Positions 397-18,795 of a DNA stretch of 64,000 nucleotides are shown piece by piece. Each line of letters opens with the position of its first letter. The stretch's first letter is position 1. The stretch is from the NCBI GenBank assembly GCA_903845195.1, contig CAIMWO010000087.1, positions 1-64,000 of the forward strand, in the 5' to 3' direction. The DNA comes from an uncultured Phycisphaerales bacterium (GTDB lineage: Bacteria; Planctomycetota; Phycisphaerae; WQYP01). Under the pieces are notes generated by a model. It saw nothing but the letters and a program-made list of their open reading frames with translations. It was not told the DNA's origin and made no database searches. Position numbers and translations under genes: made by a program.

Positions 397-1134
397 TTAC
401 CGGCCGAGGGTGTCGGGGGCCATGTCTTCGAGTTTGAAATCTTCGCGGCGGGTGATTTTTTCGAGTTTGCCGTCGCGGATCCAGCAGACGCGGTTGGAAC
501 TGGCGAGCATTTTGTGGTCGTGGGTGGAGCAAATGATGGTGACGCCGTCGTCGCTGTTGAGTTTTTTGAGGATTTCGATGATCTCGGTGCCGGTGCGTGT
601 GTCGAGGTTGCCGGTGGGTTCGTCGGCGAGGATGACGTCGGGAGTGTTGGCCAGGGCGCGGGCGATGGCGACGCGTTGCTGCTGGCCGCCGGAGAGTTCG
701 AAGGGCTTGTGATCGAGGCGTTCTCCGAGGCCGACCTTGGTGAGGACCTGTGCGGCTTTTTCGTGGGCCTCGCGCTTGGGGACGCCGGAGAACATGATCG
801 GTAGCATGACGTTCTGGACGGCGGACATGACCTGGACGAGATTGTAGGTTTGAAAGATGTAGCCGATCTTGTTGCAACGGATCCAGGATTGCTGGGATTC
901 GGAGAGGTCGAAGAGCGATTGGCCTTCGAAGAAGACGCGGCCTTCGGTGGGCATATCGAGTGCGCCGATCTGGTTGAAGAAGGTGGATTTTCCGGAGCCG
1001 GAGGGGCCCATGATGGAGATGAACTCGCTGCGATGGATTTCGAGGCTGATGCCTTTAAGCGCCCAGACTTCCTCGTTGCCCATGCGATAACGCTTCTTGA
1101 CGTTGTCGGCTTGAATGATGATGTCGTCGGCCAT
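397..1134 (-). CDS. ABC transporter ATP-binding protein (MacB/LolD type), copy 1
   Basis: A 245-residue nucleotide-binding subunit of the MacB/LolD/FtsE class, which powers FtsX-type permeases. Seen: Walker [10 protein letters not shown] at 43-51, Q-loop Gln95, signature LSGGQQQ at 147-153, Walker B with DEPTGNLD from 171, and H-loop His205. I chose the ATG at 1134 (protein begins MADD) because GGAG sits 5 bases upstream; an in-frame TTG at 1158 overlaps the previous gene's stop and is less likely. It is the last gene of the seven-gene operon and close to the ATPase at 1565-2344, with the PqqD-like gene between them. Its permease is either the FtsX protein at 2356 or the giant fusion at 5532; sequence alone does not say which. 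Confidence 0.93.
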
Positions 1135-1154
1135 AGCGACTCCGGAATAGGGAC

Positions 1155-1562
1155 TCAATGTCCCGGTTGGTAATTCTCAATCTGCAGGAGAATCATGTTG
1201 CGTAGCATGAGGGTGCGGGTGAATTTGAGGACGGCGGTACGGGCCTCTTCGGTGGAGCATTTGAAGTGGGTAGCGAAGGCGTCAGCGATGTTGTCGAGGT
1301 TTTTGGTTCCGTCTACCTGTCGCCAGTAGAAGCTGCCGCAGGCGTCGAGATTGAGCCGGGCGGAGTATTTGAAGCCGACCATGCGGCTGATGCGGCGTGT
1401 GAGGGAGCCTTTGGGCTGGATTCTGCGGCGAAGCTGGATGAGGCCGAGATTGTCGGCGCCGTGATCGATGTCGCCGGGAATCAAGGGGATCGCCGCCAGG
1501 GGATTGCGCGCGGGGATCGCGGCGCTGGGCGGAATCGGTTTTTGGCGGCGGGTCAGACGCAT
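1155..1562 (-). CDS. PqqD-like small protein between two ABC ATPases
   Basis: The 135-residue product has a core at about 66-128 that reads like the PqqD superfamily: ARLNLDACGSFYWRQVDG, then a THF/EEA helix pair and a final helix with LML and MILLQ. PqqD proteins are winged-helix peptide-binding domains, usually RiPP recognition elements that hand a precursor peptide to a radical-SAM enzyme. The first 60 residues are an Arg/Pro-rich extension that I do not recognise. The gene starts 2 bp after the upstream ATPase stop and sits inside a transporter operon with no radical-SAM gene or obvious precursor. Its role may be to recognise a peptide for export or sensing. The PqqD fold is likely; the function is unknown. 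Confidence 0.75.
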   Translation of the reverse strand: MRLTRRQKPIPPSAAIPARNPLAAIPLIPGDIDHGADNLGLIQLRRRIQPKGSLTRRISRMVGFKYSARLNLDACGSFYWRQVDGTKNLDNIADAFATHFKCSTEEARTAVLKFTRTLMLRNMILLQIENYQPGH

Positions 1563-1564
1563 GG

Positions 1565-2344
1565 TCAGTGCACCTCGCCTTTGGAGAAGTCGATTTCGGA
1601 GGGGTGTGCGGTTTTGACGATGACGCCGTCGGCGATCCAGACGATGCGGTCGGATTTTTGGAGCATTTTGAGGTCATGGGTGGCGGAGACGATGGTGACG
1701 TTGAGTTCGACCTTGAGTTTGGCGAGGAGGTCGATCATTTCTTCGCCGGTGCGGAGGTCGAGGTTGGCGGTGGGTTCATCGGCGAGGATGATTTCAGGGG
1801 AGTTGGCCAGAGCGCGGGCGATGGCGCAGCGTTGCTGCTGGCCACCGGAGAGTTCAGCGGGTTTGTGTAGTGCGCGATGGCCGAGGCCGACGAGTTTGAG
1901 GATGTGCAGTCCCTTGTCGCGGGCTTCCTCGCTTTCGAGGCCGGCGAAGGCCATGGGGAGGGTGACGTTTTCGAGGCAGGTCATGACCTGGATGAGGTTG
2001 TAGGACTGAAAGATGTAGCCGATGGTGCGGCAGCGGAGCCAGGCGAGTTCGTTGTGATCGAGCTGGGCGACGTCGACCTGGTTGATGTAGACCTTGCCGG
2101 AGCTTGGTTTGGAGAGTCCGCCGATGGCGTTGAAGAGGGTGGATTTTCCGGAGCCAGACGGACCCATGATGGAAAGGTATTCGCCTTGGAAGATATCGAG
2201 GGTGGCGCCGCGGAGGGCATGGACTTCCTGGGTGCCCATGCGGTAGACCTTTTTGACATCGACGGCGCGAATGATGGTGCGGCGTTGTCCGGCCGCAGGT
2301 TCGGCGAAGAGGTCAGCGAGTTTTTCTTGAGCGGTCAGAGACAT
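1565..2344 (-). CDS. ABC transporter ATP-binding protein (MacB/LolD type), copy 2
   Basis: A 259-residue ATPase, paralogous to the one at 397-1134. Seen: Walker [10 protein letters not shown] at 61-69, Q-loop Gln113, signature LSGGQQQ at 165-171, Walker B ending DE at 189-190 with PTANLD after it, and H-loop His223. It has about 20 more N-terminal residues than copy 1. The ATG at 2344 is preceded by AGGTG at good spacing; a longer in-frame extension upstream would run into the permease gene and is rejected. It starts 11 bp after the FtsX permease stop, so it is the most natural ATPase partner for that permease. Confidence 0.93.
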   Translation of the reverse strand: MSLTAQEKLADLFAEPAAGQRRTIIRAVDVKKVYRMGTQEVHALRGATLDIFQGEYLSIMGPSGSGKSTLFNAIGGLSKPSSGKVYINQVDVAQLDHNELAWLRCRTIGYIFQSYNLIQVMTCLENVTLPMAFAGLESEEARDKGLHILKLVGLGHRALHKPAELSGGQQQRCAIARALANSPEIILADEPTANLDLRTGEEMIDLLAKLKVELNVTIVSATHDLKMLQKSDRIVWIADGVIVKTAHPSEIDFSKGEVH

Positions 2345-2355
2345 CAGACACCTGA

Positions 2356-3402
2356 TTAAATATTGGATCGCAGAGCGGCGGCCGGCACCATGCGCGAGGC
2401 GAAGCGTGCGGGGTAGACCGCGGCGACCATGGAGAGCAAAACGCCGACGACGAGGGAAAACAACCCGTAAATTCCCAGCGTTCCCCAGGAGAGCGATGAG
2501 AACACCATTCCGAAGCCGTAACTCGAGGAGTAGAGGAGGACGGGGAAAAGGATGCCGAAGGCGACGCCGAGGAGTGCGCCCATGGTGCCGATGAGGGTGG
2601 ATTCGATGAGGAAGAGGCGGCGGATGAAGCTGGAGAGTGCGCCGAGGCATTTCATGGTGCCGATTTCGCGGAAGCGTTCGGTGACGCTCATGAGCATGGA
2701 GTTGGAGATGCCAATGACGGTGACCAGGAGGGAGACGACGATGATCCAGATGGAGCGGGCGCGTTCGCGTTTTTCAGCGGCGGCAAGGCTGACTTTTTCA
2801 TCGGCGCGGAGTTCGCGGCTGAGGGTGACGAGGGTGCCGCCGGCGAAGGTCTGGGTGGCCGAGGTGTTGGGGCGCGTGATGGCGATGACTTTCTGACGGG
2901 CGGGGGCCAGAACGGCGGACCAATCGACGGCTGAGGAATCGCCATCGCCGACGACGATCACGGCGCTGGCGTCTTTGGCGACAGCGGGCAGATCGACGAC
3001 GTCGGCGTCTTTGGGCGCTGGGAGCGATTTGTTCAACAGGGTCCACTGAAGCCGCGTCAGGCCCTGCTCGCGAATCGTCTGCAGGAAGCGGGTTTCCAGC
3101 GGGTTCAAGGGGCCGGCCTGGATGACGCCGAGGGTGCGTTCGTGGAGCGGGCCGGTATCGGCGGTGAGGAAGCTGAGCATGCGAACGAGTTCGGTGCGGG
3201 TTTTTTCTTCATCGCTGACGCCCTGGGTGACGAGCTGCGTCGTGAGAATCGACATAAGGAAGGCAATGCCCAGCGCCACACCGAGGATCGTGACAATCGA
3301 TCGGCCCAGGCGGATGCGGATGCCTTGGAGTACGACCTCCAAAGCGACCGAGACGGGCAGGGAGACCTGCTCGTGGATGGTTTGGTGTTGCGGAGTTGTC
3401 AT
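2356..3402 (-). CDS. FtsX/MacB-type ABC permease
   Basis: A 348-residue inner-membrane permease with the MacB/FtsX plan: TM1 at about 35-58, a periplasmic loop of about 150 residues, then three TM segments at about 217-240, 268-292 and 308-332. The motif TERFREIGTMKCLGA after TM2 is the family's conserved cytoplasmic coupling region. Such permeases with a LolD-like ATPase drive extrusion or mechanotransmission (lipoprotein release, peptide or toxin export) rather than classic import. The start is uncertain: ATG 3402 lacks a clear Shine-Dalgarno, and an in-frame TTG at 3423 has AGAGG too close. It lies between the OPT transporter (30 bp) and the ATPase (11 bp). Confidence 0.88.
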   Translation of the reverse strand: MTTPQHQTIHEQVSLPVSVALEVVLQGIRIRLGRSIVTILGVALGIAFLMSILTTQLVTQGVSDEEKTRTELVRMLSFLTADTGPLHERTLGVIQAGPLNPLETRFLQTIREQGLTRLQWTLLNKSLPAPKDADVVDLPAVAKDASAVIVVGDGDSSAVDWSAVLAPARQKVIAITRPNTSATQTFAGGTLVTLSRELRADEKVSLAAAEKRERARSIWIIVVSLLVTVIGISNSMLMSVTERFREIGTMKCLGALSSFIRRLFLIESTLIGTMGALLGVAFGILFPVLLYSSSYGFGMVFSSLSWGTLGIYGLFSLVVGVLLSMVAAVYPARFASRMVPAAALRSNI

Positions 3403-3432
3403 GGGACGCGTATCCAGTTTCAAATCCTCTGG

Positions 3433-5535
3433 TTAGAAGGGAGCGCTGGAAATAGCGCTCTGAATGAACCGCATGGCGATGGTGCTCATGCCGATAAGGC
3501 CGACGCCGGTGAAATAGCCGGCGCAGATTGTGGGCACCATGCGCAGAAAATTATCCGCGCCGAATTTTTTACCGAAGTAATAGCGGCCGATCAGCGCCCC
3601 AGCGAGCTCAAATATGATGGTGTGCGGCATACCTCCGCAGCCGCGGATCATGCCGTAGACCAGCATGACCGGCAATCCGAACATGTTAAGCACTGCGAAT
3701 GCGACGATGGTCACGGAGAAGCCGGTGCCGATCACAGTGGGGTGGATCGCCTGCATGAACTGGCTGTCCTTGATGTCGGCGGCGCGCTGGCCCGGCTGGC
3801 TGTAGGTGGAGGAATAGAGCAGGGCCATGTTTTTGGACTGGAGGGTCCACTGGACCTGGGCGGCGGGGAAGGCGGAGGAGGGGATGGGATCGGAGGCCCA
3901 GATGAAACCCCAGAAGACGAAGGAGAGGATGAAGCTGGTGGGGATGACGACGAGGTCGGTCTTGAGGAGGGACATGAAGTTGACGCCGGTGAGTTCGTTG
4001 ACGCGGAACTGCTGGGCCATGCCGCCGTAGTTTTCGATGGGGATGGGGGCCAGCCAGATGCCGACGCCTTTGGCACCGGAGAAGATGAAGGCGGTTTCGC
4101 GGACGAAGGGGATATCGACGCTTTGGCCGGAGATGCCGAGGAGTCGAGCGTTGACGTAGGAGATGAAGGGGTTGTAGATGAAGGCGAAGATGACGAGGAA
4201 GACGCGGAGCGTCGTATTCGGTGGCAGCAGGTAGTGGCAGAGGATGATGGTGGCGGTGGAGGCGAGGACGTAGCCGACGAGGCTGATCCAGAGGGGGAAA
4301 TCGCCGCGGCCCTTTTTGGGAGTGGCCCAGAGGTCTTTACGTTTTTCGGTGGAGAGGGTGTTTTTGCGGGAGCGGTTTTCCGCGAGGCGTTTGCGGACAT
4401 CGCGGATGGTTTGGAAGATCGAAACCGCGGCGATGCCCAGGCCGGTGCCGATGCCGAAGGAAATCCAGAAATCGACGCCATTGGCGAAGCTGGTGTTGAT
4501 GGTATCCATGCCGGGCTGCCAGCGTGTGAGTACGCCGTAGTGATGGAGCACCGGATTGAAAACCATCGTGGCGACAATGGCGATCGTGGTTCCGATCACG
4601 GCCCAGAAGGGAATGATCATGCCGATCAGGATGATGCCGGGATCGATAACCAAACCCGTGGGGGTTGCGGGGAGCACACCCTGGGTGATGTTGGTGGCGT
4701 CAAACCAGGGCTGGGGGAGGATGAAGATGGGCTTGTCGAAGAGCAGGCCGGTGATGGCCGGCACGCCGACCTGCAGCGCGCCAAAAAGTACGCCGAAGAA
4801 TACGCCCAGGGTAAACAATCGCCAGCGGTCGGACTTTTTGCGGAGGCCGGGCTTTTGTGCGACGAGGTCTTCTTCGTTGGCGGGTTTGGCGGGTTCATCC
4901 GCCTCGGCCATGGCCATGGCGCCCTGGGCGCTGATGGGGGCCATCGGGAAGGGAAGCTGTTCGATGTCGGAGGTGAGGCGGAAGAAGAAGTAGCCGAGGG
5001 TCCATTTGTTGATGAAGCCGATGACCGTCATCGCCGCCAGCAGGCCGATGGGGACGAGCCAGTCGGGATGGAAGAGGTTGCGTGAGACGATGGCGGGGCT
5101 ATCGGGGGAGGGGCTCCACCATGTGGGGAAGGCGCCGCGGAGGCCGGCATCGCGGACGGCGTCGCTGGTGACGAAGAAGGCGCGGAAGACGAAGCCTGCG
5201 AATGCGCCGCCGCCGGCCATCGCGCCGGCGGCCCAGAGGAGTACGACGAGCTCCTGTTTGCTGGGATTTTTCATGCTGCGGCGCATGATTTCGGCGAAGA
5301 GGATCACGGTGACCCACTGGGCGGCTGCGCCCATGCCGCCACCGGTCATGAGGCCGAGGTAGATGGACCCGGGCATCATGATCAGGCCGCAGAAGATGAC
5401 GCCGGCGACGGTGCTCCAGCCGAAGCCATCCTTGAACTCGGTGGGGGTTTCGAGCAGGTTGCGGTATTGGGCGAGCTCGGCGTCACCGAGGCTGAGTTTG
5501 GGTTTCTGTGCAACTGTTTCGGTGGTGGTGCTCAT
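3433..5535 (-). CDS. OPT family oligopeptide/metal-chelate transporter
   Basis: A 700-residue polytopic protein with about 14-16 hydrophobic segments. It carries the PFPMAPISAQGA stretch and the Gly-rich re-entrant type segments I associate with the OPT (oligopeptide transporter) superfamily. It also has a charged cytoplasmic loop at roughly 215-240 (EADEPAKPANEEDL). OPT proteins import small peptides or peptide-like metal chelates by proton coupling. Its ATG overlaps the stop of the 1717-residue gene in an ATGA, so the two are translationally coupled. Family assignment is from memory of motifs; the substrate is not readable from sequence. A peptide substrate fits the PqqD and peptidase-like neighbours. 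Confidence 0.78.
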   Translation of the reverse strand: MSTTTETVAQKPKLSLGDAELAQYRNLLETPTEFKDGFGWSTVAGVIFCGLIMMPGSIYLGLMTGGGMGAAAQWVTVILFAEIMRRSMKNPSKQELVVLLWAAGAMAGGGAFAGFVFRAFFVTSDAVRDAGLRGAFPTWWSPSPDSPAIVSRNLFHPDWLVPIGLLAAMTVIGFINKWTLGYFFFRLTSDIEQLPFPMAPISAQGAMAMAEADEPAKPANEEDLVAQKPGLRKKSDRWRLFTLGVFFGVLFGALQVGVPAITGLLFDKPIFILPQPWFDATNITQGVLPATPTGLVIDPGIILIGMIIPFWAVIGTTIAIVATMVFNPVLHHYGVLTRWQPGMDTINTSFANGVDFWISFGIGTGLGIAAVSIFQTIRDVRKRLAENRSRKNTLSTEKRKDLWATPKKGRGDFPLWISLVGYVLASTATIILCHYLLPPNTTLRVFLVIFAFIYNPFISYVNARLLGISGQSVDIPFVRETAFIFSGAKGVGIWLAPIPIENYGGMAQQFRVNELTGVNFMSLLKTDLVVIPTSFILSFVFWGFIWASDPIPSSAFPAAQVQWTLQSKNMALLYSSTYSQPGQRAADIKDSQFMQAIHPTVIGTGFSVTIVAFAVLNMFGLPVMLVYGMIRGCGGMPHTIIFELAGALIGRYYFGKKFGADNFLRMVPTICAGYFTGVGLIGMSTIAMRFIQSAISSAPF

Positions 5536-8500
5536 GCGACCTCCGCGGCAACATCAGTCGGTGCAGACATAACGGCCGTTTCAATTTGTTGGCGTGCCGC
5601 GTCGAAAAGACGTCCGCGTTCTTCGGGGCTTACGGCGCGCCAGTAGAGGAAATTCTTGCGAACCAGGCCGACGAAGCCTTCATTGAGGCGCATCCAGCTT
5701 TCGCGGGTGCCGGACAGGCGCGTGAGCTGGAGGCGGGCGATAAACTCGCCGGTTTCAGGATCGGTGGGCATACGGATGATGAGCTCCTGCGAGACGCCGA
5801 GGTCGAAGGGTTTGAGCCAGATGGTGGTGCGGATTTCGGGGATGAGGCCGGCGGAATCTTCGGTGGCGGCAAATTCGGGCTTGCCGGCGTGGAAGGTGCC
5901 GGTGCCGCCTTCGCCGTGATCCATGAAGATGCGGTTGAAAAATTCCAGCACGGCGATGCGATCTTTGCGGTCGAAGGTGAACGGAAGGGCGAAGGCGATA
6001 GCATCATCCTGGGCGGGCGGCAACGACCAGCCCTGGTCGTCCGCGGGGGTGGCGATTCTGCCGGCGGAACGCGCCGGGAAATATGTGGAGACGAACACGG
6101 CCACGGCCACGGCGATCGAGGCGAAGATCGTGTTGATGTTGGTAAAGGTCATCCGCATGCCGCCGGTCCACTGGTAACCGGTGACGGCTTCGAGTTCGGT
6201 CAAGGTTCTGCCGAGGCCCTGGCTGAGCAGGAAGCCCAGCACGGCGCCGACGACTGCGTAGACGAACGCCTCGGCGAAGAACATGAAGAAGACGTAACGG
6301 GGAGCGATGCCGACGGCGTTGTAGACGAAGATTTCATCCTTGCGCTCATAGACGCTGCCGCGCATCGTATTGAGCACCGTCAGTGCGGCGACCAGCAGCG
6401 GCACGAGCAAACCGGCCAGGCCGGCGAAGCTGGTGGCGCGGGCGAGTTGCCCGATGTACGCGATGCCATCGAGGCCGTAGTACGTTTCATTGCCGCTCTG
6501 TTCCAGTTGGGTATTGATGGCGGATTTGGCGTCCTTGTAGCCGAGGGCATTGAACTCCACCGCCACCGACGTCAGACGCGCCCCGGCATGGGCGGAGGAA
6601 AGCGTATCGAACGGACGGCTGGCGGCGAGAATGACGCGTTCGGGGGAAAGCTGCGGATCGTTCAGCGAGGCCAGCAACGAGCTGCCGGCCACCCGGGGAG
6701 TGGCGATGGCTTCGGCGTCGAAGGGCAGGAGATTGCGGCCGTCGAGATCGCGTGCCTCGGCCAGCGACGCGCCGGCGAAAATGCCCCAGACACTGCACAA
6801 TTTGCCGCAGACTTTGACCGTCGGCAGACCCGCGTTTACATCGCGAACGTTCAGCCCCAGATTGCCCGCCATCGATTCCGGCAACATGATGAGGATCGGA
6901 TCTTTCGTCGACATTTTTTCCGGCGGCGGCGGGAACCAGCCCCGATTGGTCAGCAGCTTGATCTTCTCCTGCAGCGGTTCACGGTTGGACAGAACCAGCA
7001 TCGAGTTGGCGATCACTTTTCTCGAGATGGCCATCGCGTCGGGCTGGGTGGCGGCTTGCGCGGCCGGGTCGTAAACGATATCGAGCTGCGGGTTATAGAC
7101 GACCTGATCCCACGTCCGTTCCCCGACATACATGGTCCGCGGCGCCACGGTATACATGTGTGCGTACTTGTTCTGCAACGCAAAGAAGTCGCCTTCGCCG
7201 ATGGGATAAAAGCTGTCGGGCTTGAGCAGGAATCCCTGGTAGGGCGCCTTGCCGACGGCCACGGCCTTTTCCTTCAAATCGCTGGTGACGCTGGTGAAGC
7301 AGATCATGGCGAACGTGATCAGCACCAGGGTGGCGCAGGTCAGTCCGGTACGCACCTTGCGGCGATGCATGTTGTTGAGGCCCAGCATGAAGGCGGTGCC
7401 GATGACGCCGAAGGTGTTGATTTCGGCGGCGGTCACCTTGCCGCGCTGCTTGCGGAGCTCATCGAGGTTTTCCTGGAACTTGCCGAAGAAGAGCATCGTG
7501 ATGCCGGCGGAAATCAGGAGGATCACAAATCCCAGGAGGATCATCAGAGACGAGCGGATCATCTCAAAGGCCGGATGCAGGAGCTTGAGCAGGGCGAAGA
7601 CGACCAGGATCACCATCGCCTGGGTGATGATCTGCTTGCGTACATCGGCAAAGCCGAAGACCAGTTTCTCGAAGAAGAACGCGAACGGCACGAGGAGCCC
7701 GAGGTACCAGAGCACGCCGATGACGGCCTCTGAAATGGCCCCGCGGAGCACCGGGTGATTCAGCGTCGAGTAGGTCACCGATTCCTGCGACAGCAGGGTG
7801 CGCTGGTGCTGGCTGATGCCGGGCTGCGTCGAGGCTTCCAGGCTTTCATGCGCCCGCTTCTCAAAGGCGACGACGCGCTCGTCGGCCATGTGGTGACGTT
7901 CTTGAAGTTCGAGGCGGCGATCGTCCACCTGCAGCATGGCGGAGGCCACGCGCTGGGGTATGTCGCGTATGAGCAATGAATCGGCGGCCAGGTAGCCGGG
8001 GCCGTCGATTTCCTTGTGCGGATCGAGCGGGTAATGCGTGGCGGCGATCGATTCGGTGCCCAGAAGAAATGCGCGGGTGGCCTGGGTGGAGGGGCTGTCG
8101 GCAGCGCCGGCCTTCAATTCCACGTAGAGGAACAGCTCGGGCTCGACGAAGGTGAGGCTTCCCTCTTCACCGCGGTATTTGTAGAAGCGGCTGAGGTCGG
8201 CCAGGCCGTCGCGCACAATCAGATCGACAGCGCCGTAAGCGGTGAGGGTCTGGGGATTGATGAGGTCGAGGATACCAACAGGTGCGGCGCGAAATACCAC
8301 GACGTTTACACTCAGTGCGCTGGTGCCCCATTGGCTGAAGTTATTGGACTTGTAGACGGATTGGCCGATGGACCCGTCATCCTTCATGTAACGGATGACG
8401 CCGTTGGGGCCGTAGCCGGCGATTTCCGGGGAGTAGGGCCAAACGACGTCGGTGGCCCAGAGGGGGCGTGAATAACGGCCATAGGGATCGGTGATGTCCA

Positions 8501-10685
8501 TCATTTGAGGCAGGTAGCCGAACTGCTGGAACACCTGGTACTGGGGTTTGGGGGCGAAGAGGGCGCCGGCGAGGGGGTAGTTGGGGACGACTGATTTACC
8601 GACCCCGGCGACGTATACGCAACCGTTGAAGGTTTTTGCGCCGGCCTTGAGGGGCAATTCAAACCAGCCGTTGCCGTGGGCCAGCCACAACATGGTTTCG
8701 CCCGCGACATGAAGGGAGTGTTGCATGGTGCCGAGGTCGCGCATGAAGGGTTTGGAGATGGGCGAATTTTTGAGTTCGTAGGCCGAGGTGCGATCGGTGT
8801 TGATCAGGCTTACCGACGGATACGAGAGGCGGTTCCAATAAGTCGTCGAAGTGTTGAGATCGGGAACACGCGACGCAATCTTGCTGCTGTGCTTGGCGTC
8901 GTTAATCGATTCATACCGAAAGGCGGCGAAGTCAGCGGCGGAGCCCTCTTTGTCGGCATCGGCGCGGAGGCGATTGGTGCGGCGGAGCAGGGCGTTGTTG
9001 AACAAGGGGTACTGAACGTAGGCGCCCTCTTCGACACCCGGCCCCATGAAGACGGTCATCGACTCAGAGGGCGTCTTGCTCGGCTCCGTCGGCAGAATCT
9101 GCGGCGCGACTACCACCACGGTGGAGTATTGATGAATCGCATCGTGGATGGCTAGCGCCTGGCGCGACCGGCCCAGTTCCGCTTCGTGGAACGCATGCAA
9201 GGTCCCGAACCGGTCCACGCAGCGCTTGATCAGGTCGGCCTCGGTGATGAAGGTTGCGGAGGTGGCGACCAGTTTTCCCAGCGGATAGCCGCCGACCGCC
9301 AGCGCCTCGTCGTAGCCGGCCTTCATCTTCATGTAGGCCAGGAACTCGGGCGATTCGAGATTGCTGTCCATGCGCTTGAGGAACTCGATCTTCGCCTGCA
9401 GTTGCGCTTCGGTGCGCTCCAGCAGTATGGTGTTCATCACGTAGCGGAACTGCTCTTCAAAAAAGTTTCGCTCATCCTTCTTGAGACCCGCCACGAGTGA
9501 CTCGGTGGCCGCGGCATCATGCAGGAAGCGGGAATCGGCGCACAGGCGGATGATCGCGTCCAACTGCGCCAGGCGCAGCTGGTTCTCATCGCGTTCCTTG
9601 ACCAGTGCTTTCCGCGCCGGTGCGGGATCATGGGCCGAGCCGAGGATGGACAAGAGCCGTGCTGAGGAGTCCTGAGCGGCGACCTGCCCGCCGGTGGCGA
9701 TGAAGACCACGTCCCGCCGCAGGTGCGCTTTGTAGCTTTTGAGTCCATCCAGCATCGCCAGTTGGGTGGCCGCGGGGACGGCCGAGAGTTCGCCGGGCGC
9801 CAGGTCAGGCAGAATCGACGGCGCATCATATTCTGCCGGGATGATCAGTGCGGAGGGATCTGTCTTGTCGGCCACGCCGGCGCGAAGTATGCCCACCAGG
9901 ATCGGGTTGCGGATCTTCCGGTATTCCGTCCGCACCCGCAGCGTGACGGGTTCGTCGAGGTGATCGAAAATCCCCGGCGCGGCCACCACGCGGACATAGT
10001 TCATCGGCAGCGATCCGACGGCCAGGCTCTTGCGCCAGTTGATCTTGTCGAGGCCGTCGCGGCTGGAAACGATCATCGCCTTGAAGCCGACCTGTGCATA
10101 CTTGGCCCACAGCACGCCAAACGCCTTCGGCTGCTTCATCGCGTCGATCAGGGCGATGCAGTCGTCAAATTTGGGCCGGGTGTTCAGCAGTTCGTCGGTG
10201 ACCAGCACCAGCTTTCCCGCGAGGCCCTCGGCGGGCGTATTCATCGGTTGAATGTAATTGGGGAAATAGGGGAACAGTTCGACATTCGAGAGCGGCTTTC
10301 CGTCGGCGCCGAGAATCTGCCGCTCCAGCGTCCACGGCGCCACGGTTTGATTCTCATACTCGAGGAGTTCCAGGCCGGCATCGCGATAGGCCTGGCGGAT
10401 GTAGTCGGCAGTCTTGTAGAAGCCGTCCTGGCCGATGAAACGCGAACCCATCCCGATGATGTCCTGTTGGTGCGCCGCCACCTGCGCCGGCGCCACAGCC
10501 CCGCGCATTACCGCGGGATCATAGGACTCGTCGGCGGACCCCGTGGGCAGGGGCGGGCGTGGTGCAAACAGGGTCACGTAAAAGCACATGGCCAGCAGCA
10601 ATAGCGCAGCGAAGATGGCCGCCACGCCCAGGCGCTGTAGAAGGCTCACCGGCCTGTGATTCACTCGATCACCCGCTGTAGACAT
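5532..10685 (-). CDS. giant M28-peptidase-like (degenerate) / FtsX permease fusion
   Basis: The 1717-residue protein starts with an N-terminal TM (about 15-37), then an ectodomain whose opening (HQQDIIGMGSRFIGQDG and an amphipathic helix) matches the start of M28 Zn-aminopeptidase folds. Where active M28 enzymes have AHYDS, an Asp and a Glu-Glu pair, this protein has AEYDA near 286, no matching Asp, and GGQVAAQ near 328, so the metal site looks lost. A long predicted extracytoplasmic part with helical segments follows, then a TM block (about 980-1075). After that comes an FtsX-type core: TM near 1110-1130, a large loop, then TMs near 1415-1490 and 1512-1535 with RGSVYERKDEIFVYNAVG as coupling motif. 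A cytoplasmic tail of about 170 residues ends it. The ATG at 10685 overlaps the upstream gene by 17 bp. Confidence 0.8.
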   Translation of the reverse strand: MSTAGDRVNHRPVSLLQRLGVAAIFAALLLLAMCFYVTLFAPRPPLPTGSADESYDPAVMRGAVAPAQVAAHQQDIIGMGSRFIGQDGFYKTADYIRQAYRDAGLELLEYENQTVAPWTLERQILGADGKPLSNVELFPYFPNYIQPMNTPAEGLAGKLVLVTDELLNTRPKFDDCIALIDAMKQPKAFGVLWAKYAQVGFKAMIVSSRDGLDKINWRKSLAVGSLPMNYVRVVAAPGIFDHLDEPVTLRVRTEYRKIRNPILVGILRAGVADKTDPSALIIPAEYDAPSILPDLAPGELSAVPAATQLAMLDGLKSYKAHLRRDVVFIATGGQVAAQDSSARLLSILGSAHDPAPARKALVKERDENQLRLAQLDAIIRLCADSRFLHDAAATESLVAGLKKDERNFFEEQFRYVMNTILLERTEAQLQAKIEFLKRMDSNLESPEFLAYMKMKAGYDEALAVGGYPLGKLVATSATFITEADLIKRCVDRFGTLHAFHEAELGRSRQALAIHDAIHQYSTVVVVAPQILPTEPSKTPSESMTVFMGPGVEEGAYVQYPLFNNALLRRTNRLRADADKEGSAADFAAFRYESINDAKHSSKIASRVPDLNTSTTYWNRLSYPSVSLINTDRTSAYELKNSPISKPFMRDLGTMQHSLHVAGETMLWLAHGNGWFELPLKAGAKTFNGCVYVAGVGKSVVPNYPLAGALFAPKPQYQVFQQFGYLPQMMDITDPYGRYSRPLWATDVVWPYSPEIAGYGPNGVIRYMKDDGSIGQSVYKSNNFSQWGTSALSVNVVVFRAAPVGILDLINPQTLTAYGAVDLIVRDGLADLSRFYKYRGEEGSLTFVEPELFLYVELKAGAADSPSTQATRAFLLGTESIAATHYPLDPHKEIDGPGYLAADSLLIRDIPQRVASAMLQVDDRRLELQERHHMADERVVAFEKRAHESLEASTQPGISQHQRTLLSQESVTYSTLNHPVLRGAISEAVIGVLWYLGLLVPFAFFFEKLVFGFADVRKQIITQAMVILVVFALLKLLHPAFEMIRSSLMILLGFVILLISAGITMLFFGKFQENLDELRKQRGKVTAAEINTFGVIGTAFMLGLNNMHRRKVRTGLTCATLVLITFAMICFTSVTSDLKEKAVAVGKAPYQGFLLKPDSFYPIGEGDFFALQNKYAHMYTVAPRTMYVGERTWDQVVYNPQLDIVYDPAAQAATQPDAMAISRKVIANSMLVLSNREPLQEKIKLLTNRGWFPPPPEKMSTKDPILIMLPESMAGNLGLNVRDVNAGLPTVKVCGKLCSVWGIFAGASLAEARDLDGRNLLPFDAEAIATPRVAGSSLLASLNDPQLSPERVILAASRPFDTLSSAHAGARLTSVAVEFNALGYKDAKSAINTQLEQSGNETYYGLDGIAYIGQLARATSFAGLAGLLVPLLVAALTVLNTMRGSVYERKDEIFVYNAVGIAPRYVFFMFFAEAFVYAVVGAVLGFLLSQGLGRTLTELEAVTGYQWTGGMRMTFTNINTIFASIAVAVAVFVSTYFPARSAGRIATPADDQGWSLPPAQDDAIAFALPFTFDRKDRIAVLEFFNRIFMDHGEGGTGTFHAGKPEFAATEDSAGLIPEIRTTIWLKPFDLGVSQELIIRMPTDPETGEFIARLQLTRLSGTRESWMRLNEGFVGLVRKNFLYWRAVSPEERGRLFDAARQQIETAVMSAPTDVAAEVA

Positions 10686-13290
10686 CTGCCATGCCCATCG
10701 CTCGGAAATAGGTGGCCAATGCCACCGAAATAAACTCGCCGGAAAGTGCTCCGACTAACAAACCTATTGCGAACGGTTGTAACTTGTTGCGGATCGTCGC
10801 CGCACCGCCAAACCACAGTACGAACCAGCGTACGAGCAAGGCGACCAGCGCGCTGCCCCACAGCTTGGCCCCAAAATACGGAGATGCGCTGACGACGAAT
10901 CCGATCGGATGGAACCAGAACCAGGAAAACATCTGCCGCATGGCCGTCAGGATCACCGTGACGATTGCGGAATACCCGTAGGCGTACCACGTCGGATCGA
11001 TGTGGTGCGCCGCGCCGGCGGGTCCGGCGTTCAATACATTGGCATGTTGCGCCTGGTCCATCAGCGCGTTGAACGGCTGGAAATTCCAGGCCTTCGAATC
11101 AAACGCCCAGCCGTACTTGATCGTATCGCCACCCAAGGCATACGCATTGGACAGGAACGCCCAGCCACCCAGAAACAATCCGCCCAGCATCGCCAGGACG
11201 AGCGTGGTGGTGATATGCGAGGGGCGCACGCGCCAGCGCCGGCCCAGTTCGATCATTTCCATCTGTCCGCCCGGGATCAGAAAGAACGTCGTCGGACCCA
11301 TGAAGAACGTGACGACATAACAGAAGAACATCGCCTGCGGCCCAAAGACGGGGATGCCGCCGGTCACGGTCAGTATGAGTGCGAGATTGAACACGGCAAA
11401 CTCGCTCCAAGGCGTTCCGCACTCGGTGCGTAATTTCGAGCTGACCATTCCGATCAATACGATCCCGGCCAGGAAGGTCAGAATGCCCAGGACCGAGATT
11501 CCCACCCAATGCGCCCAGATCCCACCGAATCCAAAACATGCCGCCAGCAGTAACAGTGACGTGCGATAACTGAAGAGTTCGCCGTTGGATGCCGCCTTGT
11601 CGTTGAAGAGCGCGGCCTTAAGTACGCGCCCGATATAGCGCCAACTCAACGCCATGATCATGAGGCCGTACGCGACATAGGATCCCAGCATCTGTTCATT
11701 TCCGAGCGGGAAATTGGGCGTCGTGTCCCACCCGTACTTGTGCCCGATCCAATATTGCGTCCGAAATACCCAGAATCCCAGGATAATGCTGAACAGCACG
11801 TTCAGTTCCATGAACAGGCACAGGCTGATGAAGAACATGTTCAGATCGAAGTTGACGTCGAACATCGTGCCCCATGTGCCGCTGGTGAAGAACTCGTTCA
11901 TGCGGTGCGTGACGGTCACGTCCGGAATCACCGGATTCACGTGCCGCCAGATCTTCCCCAGGGTCCACAGGAGGCCGATCGCTCCTCCGGCCCACATCCA
12001 GCCGTTTTTCCAGATCGGGGCGGAGGCGCCGGGAGCGTCGGGATCGGGTCCCAGAAGCAACTGGGTCACCCGGGCCATGGGCATCAGGTACCGCTCACTA
12101 TCCATCCATTGCTGGCGCATCAGCGCATTGACCGCCAGGAACGCCACCATGATCAGGATCAGAAACGATGACCACACCGCCGCGGGCATGAGCCAGTCGC
12201 GCAGGGGAATGTACCCGGCAATGACAAACTTCAGCCCGGACCAACTCACCATGTTGTCCGGCTTGACCACCACGCCCGCCCGTGCCGCCTCCGGGAGCTT
12301 CGCGTAGTTGCTTTCGCGGACAATCACGCGGCCCTTGTAGATCCCTTCGAGCGTCGAGACGTTCATCAATTTTGCATCGGCGATCTCGAGGCGACCTATG
12401 CCGCTGAGCCCCAGTTCCACATCGACATATTTCTCGAGCGTTCCCGGGAATTTCGTCCCGTAGGCCCCCAGCCGCTGAAATCCCTTCTGGTGCAACGCGG
12501 TGACCCGCGGACCGGATTCGGAACTGAATATCTCCTGGAACTTGCTACCGCCGTCTTCGTAGACCCGGCAGTAATACTTCGACCCCGGCGCCAGCTCCGT
12601 GGCCCGCGCCAATACGCTGAACAGGTACGGCTCGCTGCGGACGATTCCGGCCTCGGTGCCATCCCGCGGCACCACCGGAACCCGCAGTCGTACGGCCGAA
12701 ACCTCGTCCGACCGCGTGTTTGCCATGACCGGCAGATTTTCCGTTTTTTCCGCCTCATATTCGACGGGCTGCCAGACGACATTTCCCCGGATGCCCGGCC
12801 GGAGCAAATCGGCGTTGTTAAGCTCTCCCGCCAGCAGATTTTCACCGTGCGGCCAGAGTCGATCGTTGAATGCGTCCAGCTTGTCCCACGTTTCCGTGCT
12901 CCGCGGAATCGTCCCCGTGATGGCGATAAACCGATGCCAGAAGCCCTGCGTCATCAGCGGCGCGGAGACCAGCATTGCGTAAATGACGCAGAGGAGTTCG
13001 GGGCGGCTGAGAATCCGCAGGCGGGCCATCGACCAGGAAATCCCCACCACTCCCAGCAATACCAGGGCGATCCACATCGCGGGCAACGCCAGCGTCTCTT
13101 CCGCCAGCGGGAGGCTGAAACTCAGGACCACCTCGCCGTACTGAATCAGCATCGACAGCAGCATCATTGCGAAGATGGCGGCCGCCGCCGATTTGAGGGT
13201 GATGCCGGCGCGCCATGTGGCACCCGGGCGTATATCGGCCCCGTCCTCTGACGAACGGGCTTGTGATTCTTGCTCTTTCTGTGCCTGCAT
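10669..13290 (-). CDS. large polytopic membrane protein (DUF6785/DUF6784-like)
   Basis: An 873-residue protein and first gene of the operon. TM segments lie at about 35-57 and 67-90. An extracytoplasmic region follows at about 130-350, with beta-type sequence and repeated Tyr/Val stretches, and then at least ten TM helices. The C-terminal part contains GPTTFFLIPGGQMEMIELGRRWRV. From memory this resembles the DUF6785/DUF6784 proteins common in Planctomycetota and Lentisphaerota, which look distantly like OPT transporters. No enzymatic motif is seen. The ATG at 13290 follows about 360 bp without genes, and the next gene overlaps its 3' end by 17 bp, which argues for a shared transcript. Substrate and role are unknown. 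Confidence 0.7.
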   Translation of the reverse strand: MQAQKEQESQARSSEDGADIRPGATWRAGITLKSAAAAIFAMMLLSMLIQYGEVVLSFSLPLAEETLALPAMWIALVLLGVVGISWSMARLRILSRPELLCVIYAMLVSAPLMTQGFWHRFIAITGTIPRSTETWDKLDAFNDRLWPHGENLLAGELNNADLLRPGIRGNVVWQPVEYEAEKTENLPVMANTRSDEVSAVRLRVPVVPRDGTEAGIVRSEPYLFSVLARATELAPGSKYYCRVYEDGGSKFQEIFSSESGPRVTALHQKGFQRLGAYGTKFPGTLEKYVDVELGLSGIGRLEIADAKLMNVSTLEGIYKGRVIVRESNYAKLPEAARAGVVVKPDNMVSWSGLKFVIAGYIPLRDWLMPAAVWSSFLILIMVAFLAVNALMRQQWMDSERYLMPMARVTQLLLGPDPDAPGASAPIWKNGWMWAGGAIGLLWTLGKIWRHVNPVIPDVTVTHRMNEFFTSGTWGTMFDVNFDLNMFFISLCLFMELNVLFSIILGFWVFRTQYWIGHKYGWDTTPNFPLGNEQMLGSYVAYGLMIMALSWRYIGRVLKAALFNDKAASNGELFSYRTSLLLLAACFGFGGIWAHWVGISVLGILTFLAGIVLIGMVSSKLRTECGTPWSEFAVFNLALILTVTGGIPVFGPQAMFFCYVVTFFMGPTTFFLIPGGQMEMIELGRRWRVRPSHITTTLVLAMLGGLFLGGWAFLSNAYALGGDTIKYGWAFDSKAWNFQPFNALMDQAQHANVLNAGPAGAAHHIDPTWYAYGYSAIVTVILTAMRQMFSWFWFHPIGFVVSASPYFGAKLWGSALVALLVRWFVLWFGGAATIRNKLQPFAIGLLVGALSGEFISVALATYFRAMGMADVYSG

Positions 13291-13652: not shown

Positions 13653-14549
13653 TTATTGCGCCTTTCGCGCGGTAATGGATCGAGCGATCGCGGAAATATG
13701 CAGCGGCGTGGTCCCGCAGCACCCACCGAGGATCCGCACGCCCGCGTCAAGAAGCATCGGGACGACTTGTCCCATCTCCTCCGGCGTGGCGGATCGCCGA
13801 TCGCCGGCCCCGGGGGAACCGGCATTGGGCTGCAGAATCACCGCCACGGGACCTGCTGCCGCAACGAGTTGCCGCGCCAGTTCCACATATTCCGGCAACG
13901 ACAGCGATGTGCCGCAATTCGCCCCCAGCGCATCGACGCCGGCGTCGCGCATCGTCTGGGCAATCTGCCCGACCGTCGCCCCCGTCATCGTGCGGAACGA
14001 TCCGTCGCCGATTTTGGAAAACGCAAAGGTCGTCAGCACCGGCCAGTCGGCCACGCGGCGCGCCACGCGTACCGCTACCGTCGCTTCGCCCGGGTCCGCC
14101 ATCGTCTCGATCAAGATGCCATCGGCGCCGCCTTCGTGCAAGGCTGCAATCTGTTCTGAAAATATGGCCTCAAGTTCGGGTTCTGTCACGGTTCCGACCG
14201 GCTCGAGGAAATCTCCGAACGGCCCGACATCGCCCAGCACGATGGCATCCGGGCCAGCTCCGGCGCGCGCCGCCTGGGCGCCGGCGATGTTGATTTCCCG
14301 CACTTTGGCGTCAAGCCCGTGGCGTTCGAGCATGGAGCGCGTGGCGCCGAAGGTGTTGGTCGTCACCATGTCCGAGCCGGCGTTGAAATAGTCGCGGTGA
14401 ATGGCCTGGACCCGGTCGGCATGATCGATGCACCAGCGATCGGAGCATTCACCCGGGGCGAGGCCGCGGGCGAGCAATTGCGTGCCCATCGCTCCGTCGC
14501 ACAACAGCGTTCCTTCACGCAATCTCTGCAGAAAATCAGCGCGTTTCAT
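13653..14549 (-). CDS. homocysteine S-methyltransferase (BHMT/MetH N-domain type)
   Basis: A 298-residue Pfam S-methyl_trans-like protein. The N-terminal DGAMGTQL and TNTFGA motifs are seen, and the Zn/thiol-binding cysteines are intact: Cys212 in GANCGTS and Cys277-Cys278 in GGCCGTTP. It is the size of a stand-alone MetH homocysteine domain, without a methyltetrahydrofolate or cobalamin domain. With the corrinoid protein at 18099, it could form a split methionine synthase in which methyl-Co(III) passes its methyl group to homocysteine or another thiol. ATG 14549 has AAGGGG 6 bases upstream; longer in-frame extensions run through the preceding UroD gene and are rejected. Confidence 0.88.
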   Translation of the reverse strand: MKRADFLQRLREGTLLCDGAMGTQLLARGLAPGECSDRWCIDHADRVQAIHRDYFNAGSDMVTTNTFGATRSMLERHGLDAKVREINIAGAQAARAGAGPDAIVLGDVGPFGDFLEPVGTVTEPELEAIFSEQIAALHEGGADGILIETMADPGEATVAVRVARRVADWPVLTTFAFSKIGDGSFRTMTGATVGQIAQTMRDAGVDALGANCGTSLSLPEYVELARQLVAAAGPVAVILQPNAGSPGAGDRRSATPEEMGQVVPMLLDAGVRILGGCCGTTPLHISAIARSITARKAQ

Positions 14550-14569
14550 CGCAACCCCTTCGACTCTTA

Positions 14570-15628
14570 TCACACGGAACAGTTTAACATGGTATCGACT
14601 TTGGCCTTGATCCGGCACTCGCATCCGGTGACGGAGAGCACATCGCACTCGCTGCCCAGGATCAGGGGATGCCCGGTACGGCACATGTTCGTGATGAGTT
14701 CCCGCGTCATCTGAATGACATTCTCCTCCGTCACTTTCGTATCGGAGTAGAAACTCTTGGTGGGGAGATTGCCGTAGAGCACGACGTTGTCCGGCACAAT
14801 TAGCGCATCTTCCCAGAGTTTTCGCGAACTGCCCAGCGAGAGCATGACCGGATCGAGCGAGGCGAAATCGCGCAGCATCTGATTGGTGATCTCGCCGCAG
14901 CAATGGAAGATCAGGTCGACGCCCGCATCGCCGAGTTGCTTGCGGATGCGGCGATTGGGCTGCATCACCAATCGTTCCCAGACGTCGCTTCCGGTTTCGA
15001 GTTGTTTGGGCGAAATATAGGCCACGTTGGCGGCCGGTTCTGCGAGCACGATGGCCTTTGCCCCCGCTTCGATCTGGCGGGCCAGCGACCGATGGATGAT
15101 CATCTCCGCCAGTGCCAGGGCCCGTTCGACGTTCTGCACTTCGGGGTCTTCCTCCGCCGTGGTTCCCGCACCCAACATATAGACCGGCGTGATCGGGTCC
15201 GCCAGCAGCTTCGTCATCAGCGAGAACGGCCCGATGCACATGCCCGAAGAGACCAGCGACCGATCCGTTGCCACGATCTTGATGGCATCGACATGCGCCT
15301 GCGATCGCACATCCAGCGGCCCCTTCAGCCGGCTTTCGACGATTGACAACGTCTCCGCAGCAATCGAGTCGGGAAAGTGAAATTCCGCAGCCTGGGCATA
15401 CGGAATCCCCAACAGCCCCAGCAGCGACGCCTTTTCCAGCGTCAAATCCATCAACGGAATCGCCAGCGGCGTCTGATAGCGCGTCGCCGCTTCCGCGACC
15501 ACGGCTCCCAGCCGCCGGCCGTCGAGACGTATGGCGTCATGGTCTGGTTTTTCATGCAGGACCAGATCCGTCCCGATCGGCATGCGCAGTCCGCGCGCCG
15601 CCAAATCCAGGTAGTACTGCCGCTTCAT
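14570..15628 (-). CDS. UroD-family methyltransferase with intact HxCG zinc motif
   Basis: A 352-residue TIM-barrel protein of the uroporphyrinogen decarboxylase superfamily, the branch containing MtaA/MtbA methylcobamide:thiol methyltransferases. HCCG at 242-245 supplies a His-x-Cys pair, and Cys328 in GSECDV is well placed as third zinc ligand, so this copy can plausibly activate a thiol acceptor. The start MKRQYYL at 15628 is preceded by AAAGGTG at 5-bp spacing. It begins 4 bp after the stop of the next UroD gene and ends 20 bp before the homocysteine methyltransferase start. It is unlikely to be heme-pathway HemE given neighbours and zinc residues. Confidence 0.85.
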   Translation of the reverse strand: MKRQYYLDLAARGLRMPIGTDLVLHEKPDHDAIRLDGRRLGAVVAEAATRYQTPLAIPLMDLTLEKASLLGLLGIPYAQAAEFHFPDSIAAETLSIVESRLKGPLDVRSQAHVDAIKIVATDRSLVSSGMCIGPFSLMTKLLADPITPVYMLGAGTTAEEDPEVQNVERALALAEMIIHRSLARQIEAGAKAIVLAEPAANVAYISPKQLETGSDVWERLVMQPNRRIRKQLGDAGVDLIFHCCGEITNQMLRDFASLDPVMLSLGSSRKLWEDALIVPDNVVLYGNLPTKSFYSDTKVTEENVIQMTRELITNMCRTGHPLILGSECDVLSVTGCECRIKAKVDTMLNCSV

Positions 15629-15632
15629 TCTG

Positions 15633-16814: not shown

Positions 16815-16956
16815 GATATTAAAAACTCCTGACACCGCCGAATCCAGCATACTTCTGGAACCGCTCGCTGCCATCCATCCCGCTGCCAAACCCCTATATT
16901 ATCCTGCTGCGACACGTCCTCTGAATTGCCCCGTTGTTTGATTCTCTGCTTTTTGC

Positions 16957-18045: not shown

Positions 18046-18098
18046 TGGTTATTCCAATCTATTTTCGTTCGAAGCACTTTCGCGCGATGCGTGCGATT

Positions 18099-18728
18099 TC
18101 AAGCCGCCAGCAGCTTACGCACCAGGTCCACCGCTCCGGCAGCATCGGGCGAGAAGCCGTCGGCGCCGATTTCCTTGGCGAAATCCTGCGTGATCGGGGC
18201 GCCGCCCACGACCACTTTCAGCGATCCCAGGCCCGCGTCCTTGATCGCCTTGACCGTGGCCTGCATCGCCGGCATCGTCGTCGTCAGCAGCGAGGACAAG
18301 CCCACCACCTGCGCCCGATGTTCCTTGACTGCGGCAATGAATTTCTCGGCGGGTACATTCGTGCCCAGGTCCACCACCTGGAAATTCGCCCCGCGCCACA
18401 TCATGGCCACCAGGTTCTTGCCGATGTCGTGCAAATCCCCCTGTACCGCACCGATCACCGCGATATATTCCGGCTTGATCCCCGCCTTCACCAGCATCGG
18501 TTCCAGCAGCGCCATCGCTTCCTTCATCGCGCGCGAGGCGATCAGCATCTCCGGCACGAAGACTTCATTCCGCTGGAATCGCCGGCCGACTTCATCCATC
18601 CCGGCCACCAGCGCATCTAGAACCTGCCGCGCCGGCACCTGTGCGTCGATCGCCGCCTGGGTCAAACGTTTGGCTTCCGCGCGATTTCCCTTGATGATGA
18701 CCTGAGTCAGTTCCTGCAACTCCGCCAT
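18099..18728 (-). CDS. corrinoid (cobalamin-binding) methyl-carrier protein
   Basis: A 209-residue protein with the two-domain plan of MtaC/MtmC/MtbC: an N-terminal four-helix cap (about 1-85) and a Rossmann B12-binding domain. The DxHxxG cofactor motif is present as Asp98-His100-Gly103 (GDLHDIGKN), followed by GLSSLL and GGAP signatures. It carries a methyl group on cobalt between a donor-side and an acceptor-side methyltransferase. It is the first gene of the minus-strand corrinoid set, with GGAG 8 bases before ATG 18728 and a good promoter candidate at 18767-18795. Family assignment is firm; the methyl donor is unknown. Confidence 0.93.
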   Translation of the reverse strand: MAELQELTQVIIKGNRAEAKRLTQAAIDAQVPARQVLDALVAGMDEVGRRFQRNEVFVPEMLIASRAMKEAMALLEPMLVKAGIKPEYIAVIGAVQGDLHDIGKNLVAMMWRGANFQVVDLGTNVPAEKFIAAVKEHRAQVVGLSSLLTTTMPAMQATVKAIKDAGLGSLKVVVGGAPITQDFAKEIGADGFSPDAAGAVDLVRKLLAA

Positions 18729-18766
18729 GGCTGGACTCCAAGCAAAATACGCAAATTGAGAATATG

Positions 18767-18795
18767 ATCTTATTATCCAGATATGCTATTGTAAA
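18767..18795 (-). promoter_or_regulatory. sigma70-like promoter of the corrinoid operon
   Basis: On the minus strand TTTACA (18790-18795) and TAAGAT (18767-18772) are separated by exactly 17 bp, ending 38 bp before the corrinoid-protein ATG. Five of six -35 bases and four of six -10 bases match the consensus. The AT-rich patch stands out in a GC-rich context. Confidence 0.5.

Follow-up and report, generated by a model that had tools for sequence, protein, structure and literature searches.

In a 64,000-nucleotide stretch of DNA from an uncultured Phycisphaerales bacterium (positions 1 to 64,000 of contig CAIMWO010000087.1, or C87; the whole stretch is referred to as the window), seven minus-strand genes at positions 397 to 13290 encode what is well supported as an ATP-binding cassette (ABC) machine of Type VII (i.e., the LolCDE/MacB/FtsEX class). 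At its center is a permease of 1,717 amino acids (aa), hereinafter called the giant, whose large ectodomain has an aminopeptidase fold without the zinc ligands. We propose that this dead peptidase serves as a receptor, that the machine is coupled to subunits of the OPT fold, and that its substrate is a peptide- or lipopeptide-like molecule of the cell envelope; we give this composite reading an even chance of being correct.

The presence and the tight packing of the seven genes are confirmed. In the order of transcription, they encode a DUF6785/DUF6784 membrane protein (10669 to 13290; 873 aa; PF20581, E value of 6.3e-52; PF20580, E value of 5.4e-15), the giant (an open reading frame [ORF] at 5532 to 10685, overlapping the preceding gene by 17 bp), an OPT-like polytopic protein (3433 to 5535; 700 aa; 4-bp overlap with the giant gene), a second, small FtsX-type permease (2356 to 3423; 355 aa; PF02687, E value of 6.4e-16; gap of 9 bp), a LolD/MacB-type ATPase (1565 to 2344; gap of 11 bp), a small PqqD-like protein (1155 to 1562; 135 aa; PF05402, 30.6 bits against a cut-off of 23.4; gap of 2 bp), and a second LolD/MacB-type ATPase (397 to 1131; gap of 23 bp). 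The reading frame of the ATPase gene at 1565 to 2344 is open as far as position 2650, and a TTG at 1158 is an alternative start of the last gene, giving a 4-bp overlap instead of the 23-bp gap. The Pfam scan gave at least a partial name to six of the seven genes (ABC and FtsX in two genes each, PqqD, DUF6785, and DUF6784), the OPT-like gene being the exception. An earlier note on this DNA, made from the sequence alone, had described seven packed minus-strand genes, and its labels of DUF6785, FtsX, ABC ATPase, and PqqD are borne out by Pfam. Its other two labels held in part. The M28 label stands by profile search and structure prediction but not in the single-sequence Pfam scan, and the OPT label is suggested for the family by PF03169 matches in 2 of 31 aligned members but is not borne out by the window protein itself. 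Since the window starts at base 1 of the contig, with 396 bp visible past the last ATPase gene, the region beyond that gene is unseen. Promoter and terminator scans returned sites no more numerous than in shuffled sequence; the ends of the operon therefore could not be placed.

The giant consists of a first transmembrane (TM) segment, a PA/M28-like ectodomain (residues ~50 to 680; 8646 to 10538), a further periplasmic beta region, three TM segments, an FtsX/LolC/MacB-type permease core (residues ~1090 to 1545; 6051 to 7418), and a cytoplasmic C-terminal alpha/beta domain seen in the structure model (residues ~1562 to 1717; 5535 to 6002). A profile search with the giant matched the YwaD aminopeptidase (E value of 6.7e-25) and also nicastrin (best E value of 5.9e-6) and nicalin (E value of 2e-5). 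The AlphaFold2 (AF2) model of residues 1 to 990 has a mean predicted local distance difference test score (pLDDT) of 90.2 and a predicted template modeling score (pTM) of 0.89, and the VIA fold search matched its PA/M28 part to a Bacillus subtilis aminopeptidase (6hc7; Z = 26.7; root mean square deviation [rmsd], 5.6; 374 aligned) and to 1amp (Z = 25.1; rmsd, 3.0; 277 aligned). The VIA matches listed for this half span residues 48 to 684, the beta region (~684 to 900) lying outside them, and the fold is interrupted by a helical insert at residues ~355 to 517. The H, D, E, and H ligands of M28 enzymes are replaced in the window giant by E285, S301, V335, and N640, and their general base E by Q334, according to a HMMER alignment and to M28 residue numbers that we take to be correct. 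Four of the five zinc-ligand positions were scored column by column in 40 giants (the fifth, the D179 position, is outside the tally): none of the four ligands is kept in 36 giants, one is kept in 3, and two are kept in the giant of locus L072. With the PA/M28 fold present and the zinc ligands lost at the positions scored, the giant of the window does not qualify as an active M28 peptidase.

Other residues of the same region are retained. D287 is present in all 40 giants and H334 in 28 of them (Q334 in the window copy), and an LDLSS-like strand is common to many giants outside the clade of the window. The invariance of D287 and the frequency of histidine at position 334 indicate that the M28 pocket has been remodeled and has not simply decayed; judging from these sequence patterns, the two residues and the strand may perhaps form a new binding or active site in it. 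A giant of the Poribacteria (L077, 5603 to 12937; 2,445 aa) carries a LysM domain at residues 160 to 184 in addition to an M28 match, both above the Pfam cut-offs, and a LysM domain in the ectodomain would fit a position near the peptidoglycan.

The second half of the giant places it among the Type VII permeases. Its core matches PF02687 (E value of 3e-12), and the AF2 model of residues 975 to 1717 (pLDDT, 87.4; pTM, 0.61) gave VIA Z scores of 13 to 16 against HrtB, YtrF, MacB, and LolC. The core aligned to HrtB (7w7c) with a Z score of 16.2 (rmsd, 3.2; 159 aligned); the alignments to MacB (5gko; Z = 15.1; 343 aligned; rmsd, 18.3), LolC (9rld; Z = 14.9; 338 aligned; rmsd, 15.0), and YtrF (rmsd of 15 to 18 and Z scores of 15 to 16 for the three) have shifted domains. 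An FtsX-type core of four TM helices, with a periplasmic domain after the first helix, was found on the combined basis of PF02687 in both permeases of the operon, the fold, and hydropathy. Another giant (L145) matches MacB_PCD above its Pfam cut-off. The C-terminal domain weakly matched the METTL16 VCR structure (6m1u; Z = 7.7; rmsd, 2.8; 103 aligned), a resemblance of models that may merely reflect a common arrangement.

The permease half of the giant is already catalogued under a CARF name. The PADLOC model CARF_m8--CARF_LolE_TM (PDLC01991), reportedly based on a paper by Makarova and colleagues from 2020, matches residues 976 to 1573 of the window giant (E value of 1e-34), with the match confined to profile positions 63 to 581 of 810, which constitute the TM/LolE part. 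It also matches the small FtsX protein (E value of 8.3e-11) and all five further giants that were compared (E values of 1.4e-35 to 2.8e-64). In two giants (L107 and L119), the match runs to profile position 681 to 690 and therefore includes the cytoplasmic C-terminal domain. The giant is matched as well by a sister model, which is longer and has a beta-galactosidase part; this hints, at the level of profiles, at exchangeable ectodomains. No CARF family appeared in the Pfam results of the scanned giants or among the fold-search matches listed, and no search of the C-terminal domain was aimed at CARF.

The genes are clearly kept together in relatives, contrary to the refuting condition set in the earlier note. 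All seven families recur in the window order (i.e., DUF6785, giant, OPT-like, FtsX, ATPase, PqqD-like, and ATPase) at L053, L056, L058, and L061, and six of the seven were found at L050, L054, L057, and L059. Because the same order recurs at four other loci, the arrangement exceeds chance. Outside the clade of the window, the order is shuffled; a common alternative is giant, OPT-like, hyp310, PqqD-like, FtsX, and ATPase, where hyp310 is a protein of ~300 aa with conserved tryptophans, whose gene adjoins the PqqD-like gene in such loci (e.g., L009, 15612 to 16544; L075, 16484 to 17461). Two hyp310 members that were scanned had no Pfam match, and PDB matches were none better than an E value of 0.7. 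An hhalign comparison found no relationship between hyp310 and the C-terminal part of the giant (probability, 0.1).

For a wider count, 115 giants of at least 900 aa were pooled and grouped into 78 clusters at 70% identity, 38 of which were well flanked (i.e., at least 7 kb downstream and at least 3 kb upstream). Partners were counted within 9 kb on the same strand as the giant, and, for ORFs that belong to none of the seven families, the calls relied on length and an in-locus codon score, with no gene finder. An OPT-like gene accompanied the giant in 34 of the 38 clusters, an ATPase gene in 24, an FtsX gene in 24, and a DUF6785 gene in 16; the counts for PqqD-like (18) and hyp310 (11) genes depend on the ORF calls and are lower bounds. 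Under a laxer rule that favors matches (2.5 kb downstream, or OPT found), 65 of 73 clusters had the OPT-like gene, and L048, L052, L072, L073, L076, L097, L098, and L100 were without it. Across 196 Planctomycetota genomes, the giant (E value of 1e-40) was detected in 25 and the OPT-like gene (E value of 1e-20) in 24, all of them giant carriers (24 of 25 carriers versus 0 of 171 noncarriers; Fisher P = 6.5e-30, with kinship ignored). The sole carrier without an OPT-like gene (G106) has four giant matches, one of which (L143) runs into a contig end; up to five giant matches, some of them fragments, occur in one genome (G137). The OPT-like gene is the tightest, near-obligate partner of the giant.

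Relatives of the giant are widespread, many of them in little-studied groups of bacteria; one locus with the system, L107, is in a MAG (metagenome-assembled genome) titled Chthonomonas calidirosea. An alignment of eight giants found at least 537 relatives in GTDB contigs, the best 80 loci of which were kept. The FastTree tree has 109 rows, most of them MAGs; 43 rows are without a group, and the others belong, by title, to 11 phylum-level groups, namely, Armatimonadota (24 rows), Poribacteria (20), Verrucomicrobiota (5), Planctomycetota (5), Omnitrophota (4), Lentisphaerota (3), and one row each of Kiritimatiellota, Latescibacterota, Nitrospirota, Desantisbacteria, and Myxococcota. Single rows, such as that of a "Sorangium" MAG, may represent misbinned contigs. 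The window giant groups with two Lentisphaerota rows and one Planctomycetota row (Shimodaira-Hasegawa [SH]-like support, 96) inside a wider clade A (support, 99 to 100), which consists mostly of Planctomycetes-Verrucomicrobia-Chlamydiae (PVC) rows plus one Myxococcota row.

The genome of the window also carries, on contig C79, a paralog of the operon that has diverged deeply from it (L009, 1017 to 19991, continuing to L010, position 523). It begins with kdsD, kdsC, an LptC/A-like gene (1,072 aa), a giant gene (1,682 aa), and OPT-like and DUF6785 genes, which are followed by genes for hyp310, a PqqD-like protein, a 210-aa FtsX protein, a GGDEF-motif protein, and a single ATPase. The C79 giant is far from the window giant in the tree and groups with the genome's own family. 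At the cut-offs used, giants, OPT-like genes, and PqqD-like genes number exactly two each in the genome, and either operon has one of every kind. A tRNA-Arg(TCT) gene lies after the C79 operon (L010, 620 to 693).

The OPT-like protein of the window has no Pfam match of note (best E value of 0.042, below the cut-off) and no NCBIfam match, and the best PF03169 match in its family has an E value of 5e-7. Neither the OPT-like nor the DUF6785 profile matched a PDB entry. Aligned to each other with hhalign, the two families gave a probability of 90 and an E value of 1.5e-6 over 440 columns, which suggests, from profile similarity, a remote common fold, with DUF6785 as an apparent distant relative of OPT proteins. 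A third DUF6785 gene of the genome is found on contig C28 (2031 to 3956), on which no giant was found. The small FtsX protein has an ectodomain in clade A and nearly none in most other groups, where its length is ~205 to 285 aa; its lolCE score is 40 against a cut-off of 362.45. Both ATPases matched Pfam ABC and have intact Walker A, signature, and Walker B motifs, and the H-loop is intact in the ATPase encoded at 397 to 1131. Their best NCBIfam models are LolD, MacB, DarD, and FtsE, with LolD nearest for both (242.5 and 218.1 bits, under the cut-off of 307.75); the curated model of the fused ATPase-permease MacB gave 221.3 bits or less against a cut-off of 966. PF05402 matched 17 of the 18 aligned PqqD-like family members (E value of 0.01 or better).

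On the basis of co-conservation and fold, we infer that the giant and the small FtsX protein would form a heterodimeric permease seated on a heterodimer of the two ATPases. The dead PA/M28 domain would act as a substrate receptor or gate, comparable to nicastrin, and ATP would move the periplasmic part of the permease as in other Type VII machines. The OPT-like protein and DUF6785 would supply the membrane passage or an acceptor site, and the PqqD-like protein would be a cytoplasmic accessory. As the most likely substrate, we consider a molecule of the envelope that resembles a peptide, a lipopeptide, or a lipoprotein and that would be encountered on the outer side of the inner membrane; this option was chosen because of the aminopeptidase fold of the receptor and the OPT-like character of its partner. 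In a bolder version, a Type VII mechanotransmitter with a nicastrin-like dead aminopeptidase would drive or gate the OPT-fold partner, so that ATP hydrolysis would be coupled to a family of secondary transporters; this hybrid is a tentative proposal that we consider possible but short of probable.

We collected 70 co-directional genes beside 38 loci; 8 were hyp310-like by eye, and the other 62 were scanned with Pfam (E value of 1e-6), with 70 of the 85 family matches listed over three scans (25 of 40, 24 of 24, and 21 of 21). Among the matches listed, the families are diverse and mostly housekeeping; those repeated within one scan are N_methyl prepilin-type (three), DUF1559 (two), and URO-D (two), and two scans each contain a single match to GFO/IDH/MocA oxidoreductases. 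The matches listed for the 62 neighbors include neither radical SAM proteins nor any other family of ribosomally synthesized and posttranslationally modified peptides (RiPPs), the scan having covered adjacent genes but not short precursors, remoter genes, or the genes upstream in the window; the HlyD/MacA, TolC, LolA, and Cas families are likewise missing from those matches. The system therefore looks self-contained.

Several observations weigh against the proposed machine. The search around the giant failed to find the ATPase and FtsX genes in 14 of the 38 well-flanked clusters, L031 yielded no ATPase, and the Poribacteria loci yielded no FtsX protein (for L077 and L094, the gaps were inspected as well); the complex may therefore differ in composition between loci, or some of its parts may be encoded far from the giant. 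The Phycisphaeraceae giants at L072, L076, and L100 have no OPT-like gene within 9 kb, and, as the giant and OPT-like genes are adjacent, linked inheritance contributes to their co-occurrence. The partners of known Type VII systems (i.e., MacA-, TolC-, or LolA-type families) are absent from the neighbor matches listed. Finally, the peptide nature of the substrate, drawn from domain resemblance only, is just plausible.

The substrate might instead be a glycolipid. The system could be an accessory of lipopolysaccharide (LPS) or glycolipid transport, in which the permease would lift a lipid-linked glycan and pass it to an LptC/A-like periplasmic bridge. Genes consistent with this occur in six genomes of the same class, including the present one, where the giant directly follows an LptC/A-like gene at a spacing of -4 to +33 bp (L009, L036, L037, L038, L042, and L043); kdsD and kdsC stand ahead of that gene in four of the six, and the other two contigs start inside it. 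At L031, moreover, genes for a WecA-type transferase and an O-antigen ligase adjoin on the opposite strand. A kdsD gene near L031 was dismissed as a coincidence, as it is separated from the cluster by opposite-strand genes, which we take to be aroA- and upp-like. However, the adjacency is limited to one class, with no LptC/A-like match in the best 80 loci or in 20 further loci, and profile searches of the LptC/A-like protein itself gave nothing in Pfam or the PDB and only a weak match to LptA (E value of 0.017). In the 196 Planctomycetota genomes, LptD (E value of 0.001; above the curated cut-off in 86 of the 94 genomes with a match) was found in 14 of 25 giant carriers versus 80 of 171 noncarriers (P = 0.40). 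LpxC is present in 194 of the 196 genomes and is therefore uninformative. LPS transport was rejected as the general function because LptD does not track the giant. The LPS link has real local support in one class but does not hold across the phylum, and we consider this explanation fairly unlikely.

The earlier note had inferred a peptide-related system, perhaps one for the recognition, export, and recovery of one peptide. That the genes form one envelope system is supported by the persistence of the families in relatives and by the co-occurrence of the giant and the OPT-like gene. The peptide substrate is favored by the dead aminopeptidase fold, the OPT-like partner, and the PqqD domain, whereas the lack of RiPP families among the listed neighbor matches and the kdsD-kdsC-LptC/A-like genes ahead of the system in one class speak against it; for the triple function, nothing was found beyond the domain names. 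The corresponding loop, in which PqqD would bind a peptide in the cytoplasm, the ABC part would export it, and the OPT part would reimport it, draws on the same three domains. Yet neither a radical SAM nor a RiPP family is among the matches listed for the 62 neighbors (short precursor genes were not searched for), and the PqqD-like protein is under the NCBIfam cut-offs for PQQ (17.9 of 46 bits) and lasso PqqD (18.1 of 80 bits). We regard such a loop as unlikely.

If the seven were independent transporter genes that became neighbors by chance, the shuffled order outside the window's clade and the loci with only a giant and an OPT-like gene would be expected; but the set persists despite reordering, and the OPT-like gene was found in 24 of 25 giant carriers and in none of the 171 noncarriers, so this already disfavored view is very improbable. 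Least credible is that the giant resembles CARF_m8 proteins in being a signaling or defense protein of the membrane, with its permease acting as the effector. The PADLOC matches to the two window permeases and the five further giants, which in L107 and L119 reach the C-terminal domain, favor this view; against it, the match in the window giant lies in the TM/LolE part, no CARF domain appears in the Pfam and listed fold results, no cas family is among the listed neighbor matches, and no CRISPR-like array was found at positions 1 to 22000 of the window.

Elsewhere in the window, positions 13653 to 21312 hold genes that we take to form a set for corrinoid-dependent methyl transfer, with two methyltransferases of the UroD type, a protein that binds B12, and a ferredoxin protein resembling corrinoid activases; URO-D was found in 2 of 19 neighbors of other giants in one scan. 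On the plus strand, 42 bp at 268 to 309 are identical to the 3' end of an intact tRNA-Val(CAC) gene on contig C56 of the same genome (L147, 1456 to 1529), beside which lies an ORF with an end that is presumably tyrosine-recombinase-like. The identity suggests that an integrated element has its far attachment site in these 42 bp, with the window genes on the chromosomal side. The Rfam search gave one match, far below its gathering score.

Searches of the open-licence literature on DUF6785/DUF6784, M28-FtsX, Type VII-OPT, and CARF-LolE retrieved no description of this system, and a link between Type VII machines and OPT proteins was found in none of the papers searched. If the proposed machine is real, the Type VII class would gain a member built around a dead peptidase and tied to the OPT fold, and bacteria of many phyla may use it to deal with one class of peptides or lipopeptides in their envelopes. 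The system also offers a handle on DUF6785, DUF6784, and hyp310 and on the envelopes of Planctomycetota, Verrucomicrobiota, Armatimonadota, and candidate phyla, and it raises the question of whether a LolD-type ATPase can power or gate an OPT-type protein.

Escherichia coli has four Type VII ABC systems (i.e., FtsEX-EnvC, LolCDE-LolA, MacAB-TolC, and YbbAP-TesA), each with its own periplasmic partner, and YbbAP-TesA is a precedent for a Type VII permease that works with a periplasmic hydrolase (PMC12646458). YbbAP-TesA resembles the window system in that a LolD-type ATPase and an FtsX-type permease are combined with a periplasmic protein part that has a hydrolase fold (PMC12646458); TesA is a separate and active enzyme, whereas here the M28 fold is fused into the permease, its metal ligands are gone, and the system includes, in addition, an OPT-like partner, DUF6785, and PqqD. 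LolCDE shares the heterodimeric FtsX-type permease and the LolD-type ATPase, and the core of the giant aligns to LolC; in contrast to LolCDE, the window ATPases are under the LolD cut-off, no LolA is among the listed neighbor families, and the giant adds an M28-like ectodomain of more than 600 residues. MacB of MacAB-TolC is likewise an FtsX-type permease, and the giant has a MacB-like periplasmic core, but the ATPases are here encoded by separate genes, with no MacA or TolC among the listed neighbor families. The PA/M28 fold is shared with M28 aminopeptidases and with nicastrin and nicalin, inactive relatives of these enzymes, from all of which the giant differs in the fusion of this fold to an ABC permease; nicastrin, too, is described as being without zinc ligands. 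The TM/LolE part of CARF_m8--CARF_LolE_TM is of one family with the C-terminal half of the giant, in which no CARF domain is seen, and the 810 positions of that model would be too short for the PA/M28 half. Like OPT transporters (PF03169), the OPT-like protein is polytopic and of ~700 aa, and two members of its family match them; unlike them, the window protein is without a PF03169 match, and its family was found, among the 196 genomes, only together with the giant.

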